The position numbers and the translations under genes were made by a program. The notes beneath the pieces are model-generated. The model saw nothing but the letters and a program-made list of their open reading frames with translations, was not told where the DNA came from and did not search any database. A stretch of 36,517 bases of DNA, from positions 1-36,517 of the IMG/VR virus record IMGVR_UViG_3300009151_000186; one strand, written 5' to 3'. This document shows, one piece after another, positions 2,618 through 25,852 of the stretch; the first letter of the stretch is position 1, and every line of letters begins with the position of its first letter. This stretch comes from a virus.

Positions 2618-3286
2618 TTAGAAGGTGCTTTCTTTAGATTCAAACGCAACCCAATACTGAATATCATCTTTCGTGTTTTTAAAGTGTGCAAAACCCTTGA
2701 ATGAGATTTGAACATCATAAGTGCCTTGAACCATCTTGATGTTTTCAGTCTTAAAAACAATCTTGTAAATCTTGCCGTTACCTTGGCCAACTTGGATCGA
2801 ATTTGTATGTTGCCCATCAGCAGACGCATCACAAGAAACAACTTCAATAGTTTCGCCGTCAGATTCGACAGAAATGTTTGGAGAAGACAATACACTGGCC
2901 GTCTTCATAATCTCTGAGTAATCAATATCAGTCAACGTAAACGAACAATCAATTTGTGTCAATTTAATCTCTTTATCTGGCGGAGAAACAATCATATTCT
3001 TCGCAGTCATACGATATTTGAGTTTGCTACGATCTCCCTTGAAGATAATATTGATATCATCAAATTCGAGATCAACCTTGTCCTTGAACAAAGAATGTAC
3101 CGACAAGAATTGGTTCAAATCGTATACACAGAAATCTTGAGGAAAAGTATCCTTTAGGATGGCTTGTGCAAGAACCGTCTTGCTGGCGGACACTGTGGTC
3201 AATTTATTTCCACGTTTGAACTCTAAGCCCTGGTTGATACCGGAGAAGTTCTTCAATACGCTGAGAGTTTCGTTAGATAGTTTCAT
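2618..3286 (-). CDS. 45: DNA polymerase sliding clamp gp45
   Basis: The protein is 222 residues from the preferred ATG at 3286, whose product MKLSNETLSVLKNFS matches T4 gp45 (MKLSKDTTALLKNFA). A longer frame begins at 3298, but GGAAAG lies correctly spaced only for the 3286 ATG. The C-terminus 'YWVAFESKESTF' matches the gp45 end. The trimeric ring tethers gp43 to DNA and, in T4, also acts as the mobile enhancer of late transcription with gp33 and gp55. It has its own consensus sigma70 promoter and is the first gene of the clamp unit. Confidence 0.95.
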   Translation of the reverse strand: MKLSNETLSVLKNFSGINQGLEFKRGNKLTTVSASKTVLAQAILKDTFPQDFCVYDLNQFLSVHSLFKDKVDLEFDDINIIFKGDRSKLKYRMTAKNMIVSPPDKEIKLTQIDCSFTLTDIDYSEIMKTASVLSSPNISVESDGETIEVVSCDASADGQHTNSIQVGQGNGKIYKIVFKTENIKMVQGTYDVQISFKGFAHFKNTKDDIQYWVAFESKESTF

Positions 3287-16260: not shown

Positions 16261-17463
16261 TTATTTTACTAATGTCTTAGAAATAAGACTAGCATATTGC
16301 TCCATCAAAGGATCTGAAGATTTTGTAACCTTCTTTTCTTCTTCGATTAAAACTTCATCCAAAGCAGACTGTTCCGCAACTTTAACACCAACCTTGAAAT
16401 AAGATTCAATTAAGGTTGATAGTTTGTTTGAGAATTCTTCTTCAGTAGTAAATTCAACACTTTCTGCAAGTGATTTTAATTTCTCTACTTGGGTCTGCGG
16501 CAGGCCTTCACACGCTGTGTAGATTGCCTCAATTTTCTTTTGTTCATTAATTTCTTTTGACAACTCGATGCCACGGCTGATTTCTTCATTCAGTGCTGCT
16601 TCTAGTTCAGCAACTTTTTCAGCCATTTCTTCGACTACATTAACTTTGTCTTCTGGAATATCAATCCAGTGTTCAACGAATAGATTGCGTAATCCGCCAA
16701 TGAAATCTTCTGCAATTTCAGCACGTAGACCTGTTTCTACTGCTAATGCATTTTCTTTCATCCACTCTTCAACCATGTAGTTTAGATAGTCATCGACTTT
16801 AGATGCCAAATCTTCTTTAATCTGTTCTACTGCAACTTCAAACTGTTCAATCAATTCTCTTTCAACTTGTTCAGAGATGATTTCGATGCGTGACATAACT
16901 GCAGCTTCAAAGATCGTTGTAGCTTTTGATGCAAATTCTTCAGATAGCCCTTCACCTTCCAAAAGTGCGCGAACATCTTCTGACATATCTAGACCTTCAG
17001 CATATGATTGGAAAGTTGCACCAGGATTCTTTTGCATTGTTTGTGTAGGTGCTTTACCCATGATACGATCACGAATAGCACTGTACTGGTCTTCAGTAGA
17101 TTGTGCAGGATGCATAACGTCTTTGCGACCCATGGTTTGCTGTGGCTGGTTTTGTGGCGTAGCTGCACCAACCCCAGCTTTTTCTGCACCAACTGGTGGT
17201 GTAGCGCCCGGAGGTGTAGCTTGCGGCGTACCTTTTAGGTAATCTGGCAATTCATCGTCCATTGAATTTGGCGAATGACCAACAAGACCAGCATCTTTTT
17301 CACCATAGGCTACTTGTGCTTGTGTTCTATTAGAGCCGACTTCACCACTTGGATGTTGGTCGGAACCTCTTGCACCACGTTTTGCTGCAACATTTGCATC
17401 TAAGGTTTCTTTAGAACCTTCTAAAATTGCATTAGCGGCTTCTGAAAGTTTGAATCTTTTCAT
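16261..17463 (-). CDS. 22: Prohead core scaffolding protein gp22
   Basis: 400 residues, very acidic, with long predicted coiled coil from about 190 to 370 and a Pro/Gln/Gly-rich middle (80-130). The start 'MKRFKLSEAANAILEG' and end 'QYASLISKTLVK' fit gp22 of exo-T4 phages. It builds the inner core around which gp23 assembles and is degraded by gp21. Many L-x-E style sites are present, as expected for a protease substrate. An exact late box lies upstream and GGAG precedes the ATG. It is longer than T4 gp22 (269 aa). Confidence 0.9.
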   Translation of the reverse strand: MKRFKLSEAANAILEGSKETLDANVAAKRGARGSDQHPSGEVGSNRTQAQVAYGEKDAGLVGHSPNSMDDELPDYLKGTPQATPPGATPPVGAEKAGVGAATPQNQPQQTMGRKDVMHPAQSTEDQYSAIRDRIMGKAPTQTMQKNPGATFQSYAEGLDMSEDVRALLEGEGLSEEFASKATTIFEAAVMSRIEIISEQVERELIEQFEVAVEQIKEDLASKVDDYLNYMVEEWMKENALAVETGLRAEIAEDFIGGLRNLFVEHWIDIPEDKVNVVEEMAEKVAELEAALNEEISRGIELSKEINEQKKIEAIYTACEGLPQTQVEKLKSLAESVEFTTEEEFSNKLSTLIESYFKVGVKVAEQSALDEVLIEEEKKVTKSSDPLMEQYASLISKTLVK

Positions 17464-17493: not shown

Positions 17494-17501
17494 TATTTAT
17501 A
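17494..17501 (-). promoter_or_regulatory. T4-type late promoter for gp22-gp23
   Basis: Exact TATAAATA on the minus strand (CGTATAAATATTC), between the gp21 stop and the gp22 start, about 30 bp before the ATG. No similar box is seen directly in front of gp23, so this may serve both. Confidence 0.75.
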
Positions 17502-23157: not shown

Positions 23158-23165
23158 TATTTATA
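23158..23165 (-). promoter_or_regulatory. T4-type late promoter for gp18
   Basis: Exact TATAAATA on the minus strand about 50 bp before the gp18 ATG. An extended -10 motif (TGG-TATAAT) follows at about 23144-23149 without a -35, which may be incidental. Confidence 0.75.
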
Positions 23166-23176
23166 ATACGCGGTCT

Positions 23177-24382
23177 TTAGAGATTTCTCATCATGTCTCT
23201 GGTCCATGAGCCGTAAGTATCTCCTCCATTCGCTGTTTCCCAAACGTCACCTCCAACAACTTCAAAGTCGTTTTCTAGCCCGTCTTCTATAATTGGTTCA
23301 AGTAGTGCTTCATCATCAATTTGATTCATACTTTCTAATTGAATCTGTTTACGGATATCGTGACTTACAATTTCTTTGAAATATTTCTGTGTCGTTACCC
23401 ATGCAAATAATACCAGTGTCATAACTAGGTCATCATTTGCACCCTCTTCAGCTTTGAAAGAATTCTTTTCTGCTACAAATGTAGTCAATTCTGAAATTGT
23501 ATCAAAGTCGTTTGTTATTAATCGGTCACCTTCCAACAACATCTTTAAGTTGGAGCAACCAATGCGTTTGACTTGCGGTGACATTTTAACACCTAACTGC
23601 ACACCTCTAGCAAAACCTGCAGATAGTTGTTGTGGTTTTTTGTTGCCTGTGAATACTTTCCATAAGTTTTCGTATTCTAATTCTGAATGTAGAATTTCTG
23701 CAACTTGTGGAGTGTTGTTGATTTCTATTAGAATGTACGCATCATTATATAGCCGTGCTGCGTTGTATATCATAGTAGGGAATAACAACGGTGAAACTGA
23801 AGAACTGCTGTACTTGGCCACTTGTTTATATGGCATTTTTGATATATCGAATACTGAGAATGCGGAAGCGTCCATGTTCCTGCCCTCAGAAACGTCTACT
23901 GTCATTGCGTATAGATGATCCTTGACTGTATCTCCATCATCTTTGATTGGTTGCTCATATATCTTCATCTTGTCATGTTCATACACAGGATCAACATATG
24001 TCAATTGTTGTAATTTTTGGCCAGATATCAGTGTGTTTGTAGAACCCAAGAATTCACAATTGTGAGACACAACTCCATTAGAATAAAATTGGTATGCTTC
24101 TACACCAACAACATCCAAAAATTCAAATTTACCTTCTATGTAATCTATATTGAATAATGAAACATAATCATTTTTTGTTTTTATCTTATCATCAAAGGTT
24201 AACTCCACGGCTTTTTTCCAACCAGATTCTGTCAAAAATTGATGTAAAGTTGAACACTCCACATGTTTACCGTCGCATAAATCCAATACAATTTTTCCAG
24301 ACTTTTTAACTGATTGTACACCTTTAAAATTTTTGAATCCGGCCGGCGTTAGTATTTCATATTCACTTTGTTCATAGAACAT
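23177..24382 (-). CDS. 17: Terminase large subunit gp17, C-terminal half with C-intein
   Basis: 401 residues. Residues 1-108 are a C-intein: 'ILTPAGFKNFKGVQSV', block B-like 'CSTLHQFL' (His47) and the terminal 'YSNGVVSHN' with His107-Asn108. Cys109 (+1) opens the extein 'CEFLGSTNTLISG', which continues the T4 gp17 sequence. The RNase H-like nuclease follows, with likely metal ligands D163 ('MTVDVSEG'), E220 ('ILIEINN') and D317/D318 ('GANDDLVMTL'). Packaging activity needs joining to the N-half encoded at 24959-25852; spliced length would be 559 aa. The ATG overlaps the HNH gene end by 11 bp, so the halves are translated separately from one mRNA. Confidence 0.95.
   Translation of the reverse strand: MFYEQSEYEILTPAGFKNFKGVQSVKKSGKIVLDLCDGKHVECSTLHQFLTESGWKKAVELTFDDKIKTKNDYVSLFNIDYIEGKFEFLDVVGVEAYQFYSNGVVSHNCEFLGSTNTLISGQKLQQLTYVDPVYEHDKMKIYEQPIKDDGDTVKDHLYAMTVDVSEGRNMDASAFSVFDISKMPYKQVAKYSSSSVSPLLFPTMIYNAARLYNDAYILIEINNTPQVAEILHSELEYENLWKVFTGNKKPQQLSAGFARGVQLGVKMSPQVKRIGCSNLKMLLEGDRLITNDFDTISELTTFVAEKNSFKAEEGANDDLVMTLVLFAWVTTQKYFKEIVSHDIRKQIQLESMNQIDDEALLEPIIEDGLENDFEVVGGDVWETANGGDTYGSWTRDMMRNL
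24059..24382 (-). other. C-intein coding segment (108 codons) of the split TerL intein
   Basis: It spans the start of the gene to Asn108, directly before Cys+1 of the extein. It begins with its own Met and holds most of the intein fold, including blocks B, F and G. The beginning and end resemble the AceL-TerL C-intein by eye (start MF..., 'GF.NF.G.Q.V', end 'NGVVSHN' followed by CEF). Confidence 0.93.
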
Positions 24383-24941
24383 TTCGTTTGCCTTTGATTA
24401 TGTTTATCATTTGTTTGTCTGATATGCAATATTTACTGTGATATGTTTTAGCAAATGCTGTCTCATAGCTTACAATTTTTCCATTTTTACTTTTTGTTCC
24501 GGCTTCAGGTAAGTTAGGTTTTTCGTTATATAGTGCAATAATTTCTTTACATTGTTCATCTTCCAATTTGCAATTATGCCTTTTGCCTTGCCGAACAGAA
24601 CTCATTTTTTCTATAGTTTCTACACTAAAACAATTTTTTTTATTTTTGTTCCATGGTATATTACCTTTTTTTGCGCCACCAACGCCGGGTCTTTTTTTGC
24701 CGGTCTGTAACTCTGAACTGTATTTTGGACCTAATCCTAATCTTTTTGATATTAAAGCCGCAGCAAACCAATCTTCTTGATTTAAATGAATTTCTAAGTG
24801 CTCACGTATAGTTAAAAGTTTCAAATTGGTTAAGTCGTCATTATTATGATTTCCATCTACATGGTGAATTTCATATGAAAACCCCATATCGTCTTTTGGT
24901 ATTGGTCCAAAATTTTTTATCCATAATTGGCGGTAGTTCAT
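24372..24941 (-). CDS. Free-standing HNH homing endonuclease between the intein halves
   Basis: 189 residues. HNH core 'YEIHHVDGNHNNDDLTNL' (H26, H27, N39) with 'LTIREHLEIH' (H48, H52). Next comes a NUMOD3-like DNA-binding stretch ('GNIPWNKNKK' and 'SVETIEKMSSVRQGKRH'). The C-terminus ('ISDKQMINIIKGKRN') looks like a NUMOD1/HTH module. It has GGAA before its ATG, 17 bp after the N-half stop, and overlaps the C-half start. It probably cuts intein-less terL alleles and so spreads the whole cassette. It seems intact, and its AT-rich, Lys-rich composition differs from the neighbouring terminase parts. Confidence 0.92.
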   Translation of the reverse strand: MNYRQLWIKNFGPIPKDDMGFSYEIHHVDGNHNNDDLTNLKLLTIREHLEIHLNQEDWFAAALISKRLGLGPKYSSELQTGKKRPGVGGAKKGNIPWNKNKKNCFSVETIEKMSSVRQGKRHNCKLEDEQCKEIIALYNEKPNLPEAGTKSKNGKIVSYETAFAKTYHSKYCISDKQMINIIKGKRNVL

Positions 24942-24958
24942 AGCATTTCCAAGGAAGT

Positions 24959-25852
24959 TTAACTCATATTATTTAGTAATTCTTTGAGTTTAACTTCCTT
25001 GACAGTATTTGTTAATTTATCTTTAATCGTCACCACAGTTTCACCGTCAAGGCACTCAAACTCTTGTCGGAACTGTTCTTGAGAAGTGTTCCGAATAGTT
25101 TCTTCTTTCCATTTCTCATCTCTTCCTGGCACCATGGACCAATGAATTTCAAACGGTTGATATCCGTTTTTCTTATTGATTGCATCCATCCACAATTTGT
25201 AGAATAGATTCATACCATTCGGTGTAGATACGATAATGATCTTGGTTGTTTTACCCGAAGAAATAACTGGATACACCGAGTTGAAGAACTCATCAGCAAT
25301 ATTGGCTGGAACGAAAGCAAATTCGTCCAAGAATACTGCATTAAAACTTCCTCCACGAACAGCAGAAGATGATGTAGACGAGGCCATAATCTTAGAACCA
25401 TTTTCTAGTTCTACGTTACCTTTGTTCCATGTAATGATGCCCTGTTGCAGCCATTCTGGTAAGTTTTCATATGCAAGTTGGTACTTTGCTAGAATGTCCC
25501 GAGCAAGTGAGCCTTTATTGGCAAGAACTGCAATATTTTGAGAATCTGTAAACAATGTTAACCAAAGGAGATATGCAACTGATGTTGTAGTTTTTCCAAC
25601 CTGCCGCGGGCATTTGGTAATAACGAAACGATTTTGTTGAAACAGCCTTAACATCTGTTTCTGAAAGTCCCACATCTCAAAGGGCATTAAGCCTCGGTCG
25701 ACGTTGACGATTTTAATATAATGGGTTGCAAAATAAACTGGATCTTTTGCACACTTCATATACTCTTCAACTTGTTCTTGCGTGTAGTTGAGTTGGACAC
25801 CAGCCCTTTTTAGAAGTGGATTATCACGATACGAATTTTTATTAGAAATCAT
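24959..25852 (-). CDS. 17: Terminase large subunit gp17, N-terminal half with N-intein
   Basis: 297 residues. Residues 1-266 are the packaging ATPase: Walker A CPRQVGKTT (81-89), Walker B 'AVFLDEFAF' (D176-E177) and motif III 'VSTPNG'. The extein stops at 'QEQFRQEFE', exactly where T4 gp17 continues with C-E-F-L-G. Residues 267-297 (CLDGETVVTIKDK... to LLNNMS) are an N-intein with catalytic Cys267 and a block A pattern. Trans-splicing with 23177-24382 would rebuild a normal terminase. It starts with an ATGA overlap of gp16. Confidence 0.95.
   Translation of the reverse strand: MISNKNSYRDNPLLKRAGVQLNYTQEQVEEYMKCAKDPVYFATHYIKIVNVDRGLMPFEMWDFQKQMLRLFQQNRFVITKCPRQVGKTTTSVAYLLWLTLFTDSQNIAVLANKGSLARDILAKYQLAYENLPEWLQQGIITWNKGNVELENGSKIMASSTSSSAVRGGSFNAVFLDEFAFVPANIADEFFNSVYPVISSGKTTKIIIVSTPNGMNLFYKLWMDAINKKNGYQPFEIHWSMVPGRDEKWKEETIRNTSQEQFRQEFECLDGETVVTIKDKLTNTVKEVKLKELLNNMS
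24962..25054 (-). other. N-intein coding segment (31 codons) of the split TerL intein
   Basis: It runs from Cys267 to the last residue before the stop. At 31 residues it is far shorter than the roughly 100 residues of ordinary split inteins and close to the 25 of the AceL-TerL N-intein. The split lies just after block A. Confidence 0.92.

Follow-up and report, generated by a model that had tools for sequence, protein, structure and literature searches.

The terminase large-subunit gene (terL) of the window, that is, of the whole 36,517-nucleotide stretch of viral DNA analysed here, is interrupted by what we consider, with a probability of about 0.86, to be a mobile split-intein homing cassette of the fractured-gene kind, whose HNH endonuclease would cut intein-less terL at or near the junction QEFE|CEFLGS. 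This T4-like terL is split, and on the minus strand its N-half, the HNH gene and its C-half follow one another (Table 1). The host gene stands in two parts, with an intein half at each end of the break and a separate endonuclease gene in between, which is the layout of a fractured gene. Both halves of terL and both halves of the intein are intact; the C-intein ends in HN, the C-extein starts with CEFLGS, and the residues for trans-splicing (Cys1, the terminal HN and Cys+1) are all present. The first-pass annotation had described the HNH gene as a separate gene whose end overlaps the ATG of the C-half by 11 bp, and this was borne out: the gene starts 17 nt past the N-half stop and is not fused to the intein. 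In most of the 27 cassettes examined the HNH stop likewise overlaps the C-half ATG, by ~8-14 nt, and the gap between the N-half stop and the HNH gene is short. The HNH gene is single-copy in the 36.5-kb contig, and the Pfam matches above cut-off are Terminase_6N, Terminase_6C and HNH_3.

The C-intein matches CatC (6dsl_B, E 1.1e-7), so the intein belongs to a known, atypically split kind. Its short N-intein of 31 aa, its long C-intein of 108 aa and its sequence kinship place it with the AceL/GOS/Cat-type TerL inteins; in atypically split TerL inteins the N-intein measures ~25-37 aa and the C-intein is long (PMC11766414).

Table 1. Features of the split terL gene and its cassette, in window coordinates.
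Feature	Position	Strand	Details
Whole cassette (N-intein, leader, HNH gene, C-intein)	24059-25054	-	996 bp, between terL codons ..QEFE and CEFLGS..
terL N-half: N-extein 25055-25852 (ATPase part, 266 aa) and N-intein 24962-25054 (31 aa), stop	24959-25852	-	Terminase_6N E 5.7e-24; CLDGE..NNMS stop
Inverted repeat / RNA hairpin upstream of HNH start, arms 24950-24973 and 24978-25001	24950-25001	-	z -4.6; covariation
Degenerate T4-type late-promoter-like octamer ACTAAATA in hairpin loop	24970-24977	-	where relatives have TATAAATA
Homing-site-like (operator-like) 22-mer	24947-24968	-	13/22 to the window's own terL junction; rank P 0.07; same place as in relatives
HNH homing endonuclease gene (putative)	24372-24941	-	189 aa, ATG start, stop included; HNH_3 E 2.3e-7, above Pfam cut-off
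HNH_3 catalytic core, residues 6-48	24798-24926	-	HNH_3 match; invariant residues; model E24-27, E40-43, H45-54
C-terminal DNA-binding region, residues 105-189 (predicted)	24375-24629	-	site-specific; HTH_3-like in 6/26 members; helices 128-182
Overlap (11 bp) of HNH stop with C-half ATG, ATGTTCTATGA	24372-24382	-	coordinates exact; ~8-14 nt overlap in most relatives
terL C-half: C-intein 24059-24382 (108 aa) and C-extein 23177-24058 (nuclease part)	23177-24382	-	Terminase_6C E 1.7e-10; CatC match

Residues 1-80 of the HNH protein match phrog_12324 (intron-like endonuclease) with an E value of 2e-22 and, taken by themselves, match I-TevIII-like endonucleases from T4-like isolates as well. HNH_3 is present in 26/26 members, with H26, H27, N34, N39 and H48 invariant in 26, and pairwise dN/dS among relatives with intact cassettes is 0.10-0.36; by its pattern of substitutions, the gene is under purifying selection. 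The NUMOD-type modules that had been proposed to follow the HNH core were not confirmed, with NUMOD3 not significant in the window protein (E=1.6) and reaching E<0.1 in 1/26 HNH members; NUMOD3 is significant in GIY-YIG relatives that have the C-terminal half in common. A match to Trypan_glycop_C on the lysine-rich linker fell below the Pfam cut-off and was dismissed as compositional. A sequence search of the PDB returned no HNH homologue of the window protein, and a fold search with the HNH model (pTM 0.42, domains flexibly linked) gave no match at E<=0.001. In this predicted model the helices of the C-terminal region are confident.

The exact terL codon that bears the cassette is uninterrupted in 74/80 of the closest TerL relatives, and the stretch QEFE|CEFLGS is almost invariant in these 74, which were chosen without regard to it. 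The comparison of phages with and without the cassette, suggested by the first-pass annotation, revealed a precise difference both among uncultured contigs and among cultured phages. In the former, L002-L004 carry a 995-bp cassette that L049/L125 lack, the flanks being 96-97% identical on both sides. In the latter, Vibrio phage VP-1 has a 1072-bp GIY-YIG cassette at the terL site, and it is absent from VAP7, a phage 97.4% identical upstream and 98.7% identical downstream in which the break falls on the same codon. Vibrio phages SD25 and BX-1 have an uninterrupted terL of 2271 bp, the same as VAP7. For the lineage of the window itself no near-identical empty phage was found, the nearest empty terL having ~79% DNA identity.

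Some of these records have peculiarities of their own. L008/L134 (2600-3720) was considered as an empty site beside a partial cassette and was rejected, since a duplicated 119-bp C-extein piece and a missing stretch suggest mis-assembly, probably of a population with both alleles; L049/L125 serve as the empty site in its stead. In VP-1 (L384, MH363700.1, 1087-4429), the start annotated for the C-half (record 77112) falls within the C-intein; the reading frame is already open from position 3146 of the locus, so the annotation clips the intein start. A further, separate P-loop intein seems to be present in both VP-1 and VAP7.

The phylogenies of the cassette and of its host gene disagree. In the HNH tree the window groups with L002 (97/93), inside a clade of L211, L216, L218 and L219 (95/92), and the HNH data reject a grouping of the window with its TerL kin (AU p 1.2e-31). 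In the TerL tree the window instead joins L245, L254, L259, L264 and L266 (98/97), and the HNH grouping is rejected (p 8.7e-6). The intein tree follows the HNH gene, with the TerL grouping rejected (p 8.8e-8) and the HNH grouping kept (p 0.34). The identities are inverted as well: HNH proteins are 56-65% identical to that of the window where the TerL C-extein is only 40-47% identical, and 37-45% identical where the C-extein is 63-77% identical. The agreement of the HNH and intein trees, their contradiction of the TerL tree and the inverted identities argue, on phylogenetic grounds, that the intein and the HNH gene are moving together, as one unit, between terL lineages.

The C-terminal region is confined to the terL site in every search made. 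Full-length HNH relatives occur in ~60 viral contigs, each time flanked by intein halves and at one and the same terL codon. With residues 105-189 alone as query, 22/22 contigs returned sit at the terL site; among 50,697 phage records, the ten best matches (E<=0.004, most of the query covered) were all Vibrio phages, eight of them annotated as terminase large subunit. In the three Vibrio phages inspected (VP-1, 1.244.A and K469) the domain belongs to a GIY-YIG nuclease, itself fused to the N-half of terL, and the codon is the same. A profile search placed the domain in 102 ORFs, 102/102 at the terL site, in loci sampled mostly through terL, intein or HNH, the 22-contig and phage-record searches being those that used the DNA-binding domain alone; 12 of the 102 have no HNH domain, nine being of the GIY-YIG type and three decayed. 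For this work alignment A4 was used instead of A3, as the alignment spanning HNH and GIY-YIG types was too diverse as a query. Split inteins of similar type that occupy other positions in terL do not have the domain.

At 20 other places the HNH domain occurs without the terL-site DNA-binding domain, and in loci L268-L284 residues 1-80 match and the C-termini are different. A search of bacterial genomes gave one match, to the HNH domain only and with another C-terminus, and a plasmid search gave none. Relatives with the HNH gene at unrelated sites and without the intein had been named beforehand as evidence against terL as the target; the catalytic domain alone was found in such places, and not the full-length HNH protein with its C-terminal domain. 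A DNA-binding domain confined to the terL site, together with an HNH domain that occurs elsewhere with other C-termini, argues from these distributions that the catalytic domain is exchangeable (HNH or GIY-YIG) and that the DNA-binding domain stays with the site.

The leader upstream of the HNH start contains further elements. Across the 12 cassettes of the group of the window, 90.6% of cells are paired in the hairpin, compared with <=48% when the pairing is slid, and the stem shows both-sided changes in 7/16 pairs. The octamer TATAAATA, the T4 late-promoter consensus, stands at a constant place in or beside the leader in 21/25 HNH cassettes, where 1.2 would be expected. A hairpin upstream of the start with a late promoter in or next to it, usually in its loop, is found in the family; the window is one of the exceptions to the octamer, with ACTAAATA in that place. 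Elsewhere in the window, TATAAATA occurs on the minus strand at 23158-23165, ~51 nt upstream of the tail sheath gene, and at 17494-17501, ~31 nt upstream of a 400-aa ORF (16261-17463); both copies are consistent with T4-type late promoters in the phage, and the total count of the octamer in the window is not significant.

Beside the octamer, at insert positions 77-92, a 22-mer resembling the homing site beats other terL 22-mers (P<=0.05) in 17/25 HNH cassettes and in 0/12 control cassettes (Fisher p 7e-5), figures to be read with the width and offset of the test having been picked after a first alignment and with the cassettes being related by descent, so that the counts are not independent. 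The controls, none of which has such a copy, are other terL-site cassettes with a Vsr/PD-DExK-type nuclease, a different HNH or no endonuclease. Among six GIY-YIG cassettes, four are without a clear copy; the GIY-YIG contig L376 has one with 20/22 matches. These copies of a homing-like site in the leader support terL as the target.

All three elements (late promoter, hairpin and operator) are also known from the T4 endonucleases I-TevI, II and III, and I-TevI uses the operator to repress its own expression (PMC2988022). By analogy, the leader suggests an I-TevI-like control of the cassette endonuclease. The window retains the hairpin, and its promoter and operator copies are degenerate; given the degenerate octamer and the weak operator-like copy, the regulation of its leader may be altered or lost.

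The first-pass annotation had named the intein-less terL junction (FE/CEF) as the probable homing target, a proposal that is supported, on comparative sequence grounds, by the presence/absence pairs, by the co-inheritance of HNH and intein against TerL, by the site-restricted domain and by the leader copies. The following course may be envisaged. Late in a mixed infection, the C-terminal domain would direct the HNH enzyme to an intein-less terL, to be cut at or near QEFE|CEFLGS, and the break would be repaired from the cassette-bearing genome, so that N-intein, HNH gene and C-intein are copied in together. TerL would be rejoined by split-intein trans-splicing, which would make the insertion a low-cost one, and the insertion would destroy the target and thereby protect the element. 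In most relatives the hairpin with its late promoter and the homing-site-like copy probably make expression of the enzyme late and self-limiting, on the pattern of I-TevI, and translation of the C-half is probably coupled to the end of the HNH gene.

Three other explanations were weighed. The HNH gene might parasitise the intein and not terL, targeting and entering an uninterrupted intein gene and thereby splitting it. In keeping with this, the intein that L131, the closest relative of the window (TerN 85% and intein ~80% identical), carries at this terL site is unbroken and has no HNH gene; in the DNA of L131, AAAGAATT of the N-intein is joined to GTTC of the C-intein. Short imperfect repeats flanking the HNH interval would also fit such an entry. 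However, both L131 and the window fall within a group of split inteins that carry HNH, so that loss of the HNH gene followed by re-fusion is a simpler history than an unsplit ancestor, and we infer, with moderate node support, that this is how the unsplit intein of L131 arose. Near-identical pairs, moreover, differ by the whole cassette at the terL codon and not by the HNH gene alone, the leader copy resembles the terL junction, and similar split inteins at other terL sites are without the DNA-binding domain. We regard an intein parasite as improbable.

Smaller still is the probability that the HNH protein is inert cargo, no longer cutting, in a cassette spread by ordinary homologous recombination. 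Decayed versions do exist, as in L351/L352/L357, where the split intein is retained and HNH is reduced to a C-terminal remnant (L359 has the intact version), and the leader signals of the window are degenerate; nevertheless, the HNH residues invariant in 26 members, the dN/dS of 0.10-0.36 and the movement of the cassette into one exact codon across divergent lineages of terL speak for an active enzyme. HNH proteins next to terL are packaging partners in HK97-like phages (PMC10448857), and a domesticated partner of the terminase would fit an HNH gene that is embedded in the terL operon, is under apparent purifying selection and would be translated with terL. This we hold to be the least probable reading of all, because 74/80 of the closest TerL relatives do without the insertion, HNH descent follows the intein and not TerL, HNH decays while terL stays intact in L351, and the catalytic domain has been swapped for GIY-YIG.

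In fractured genes, as Dassa and others are said to have described in 2009, an endonuclease gene stands on its own between the two parts of a split intein, and the endonuclease family in question was reportedly a Vsr-like (EDxHD) nuclease. The layout of the window is alike, with the host gene in two, intein halves at the break and an endonuclease gene between; the difference lies in the enzyme, which here is HNH or GIY-YIG with a common DNA-binding domain. In comparison with I-TevIII and the I-TevI group, residues 1-80 are I-TevIII-like, and the upstream hairpin and late promoter of most relatives are alike, with the homing-site-like copy as a candidate for the operator (PMC2988022), whereas the window HNH gene lies between the two halves of a split terL intein rather than within a group I intron, and has another C-terminal DNA-binding domain. 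In collaborative homing, an endonuclease gene adjoins an intron whose insertion site it attacks (PMC10448857, PMC2988022). The likeness is that an endonuclease outside the splicing element would attack the insertion site; however, the HNH gene of the window lies inside the inserted segment and not beside an intron, so the label of collaborative homing given in the first-pass annotation is not exact in the strict sense, and fractured-gene arrangement is the better term. In Pseudomonas phage MIJ3, the DNA polymerase B gene also has an HNH ORF between split-intein halves; the host gene differs, and the available portion of that article contains no work on mobility, target or regulation (PMC6892783). 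AceL-TerL, GOS-TerL and the consensus Cat (PDB 6dsl) are alike in the 31-aa N-intein, the 108-aa C-intein, Cys1 and Cys+1, and the accessible parts of the papers on them treat the intein as a tool, without endonuclease, mobility or regulation among their topics. The layout is therefore known (fractured genes, MIJ3 PolB); the portion of the literature covered contains no mention of swapped catalytic domains, a T4-style leader or the cultured pair.

Split inteins are widely used tools, and to our knowledge their origin, persistence and spread in nature have been poorly tested. The natural before-and-after pairs, with cultured phages among them (VP-1 with the cassette; VAP7, SD25 and BX-1 without), make split-intein homing directly measurable. 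The swapping of one catalytic domain for another, with DNA-binding domain and target unchanged, shows a way in which homing endonucleases may diversify, and the leader suggests that intein cassettes adopted the expression control of T4 intron endonucleases. Whether the terL split-intein cassettes form a distinct, self-regulated homing class is, in our estimate, evenly balanced; such a class would have one DNA-binding domain dedicated to the terL junction, swappable HNH or GIY-YIG domains, a late promoter and a hairpin at the ribosome site, both overprinted where the N-intein ends, a homing-site copy as operator, and endonuclease loss that heals the split intein to a single chain, as in L131.

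Other inteins and nucleases were observed in or near terL. In terL of viral contigs, at least four sites carry this type of C-intein (TerN ~87/88, 174/175, 182/183 and the site of the window), the contigs examined being L138, L159, L166, L175, L181, L182, L192, L195, L206 and L207, and several of these have two or three inteins in one terL. Split-intein cassettes at the same or neighbouring terL sites in L307, L182, L195, L137-L147, L167 and L193 have a Vsr/PD-(D/E)XK-like middle gene or its remnant. L001 (275-1018) has a GIY-YIG-like ORF between structural genes, a few kb upstream of its fractured terL, and L375 has a similar NUMOD-like fragment near its start. Among cultured phages, Campylobacter phage F370 (L387) and ~42 related records carry a related C-intein at a different terL site, in the ATPase part.
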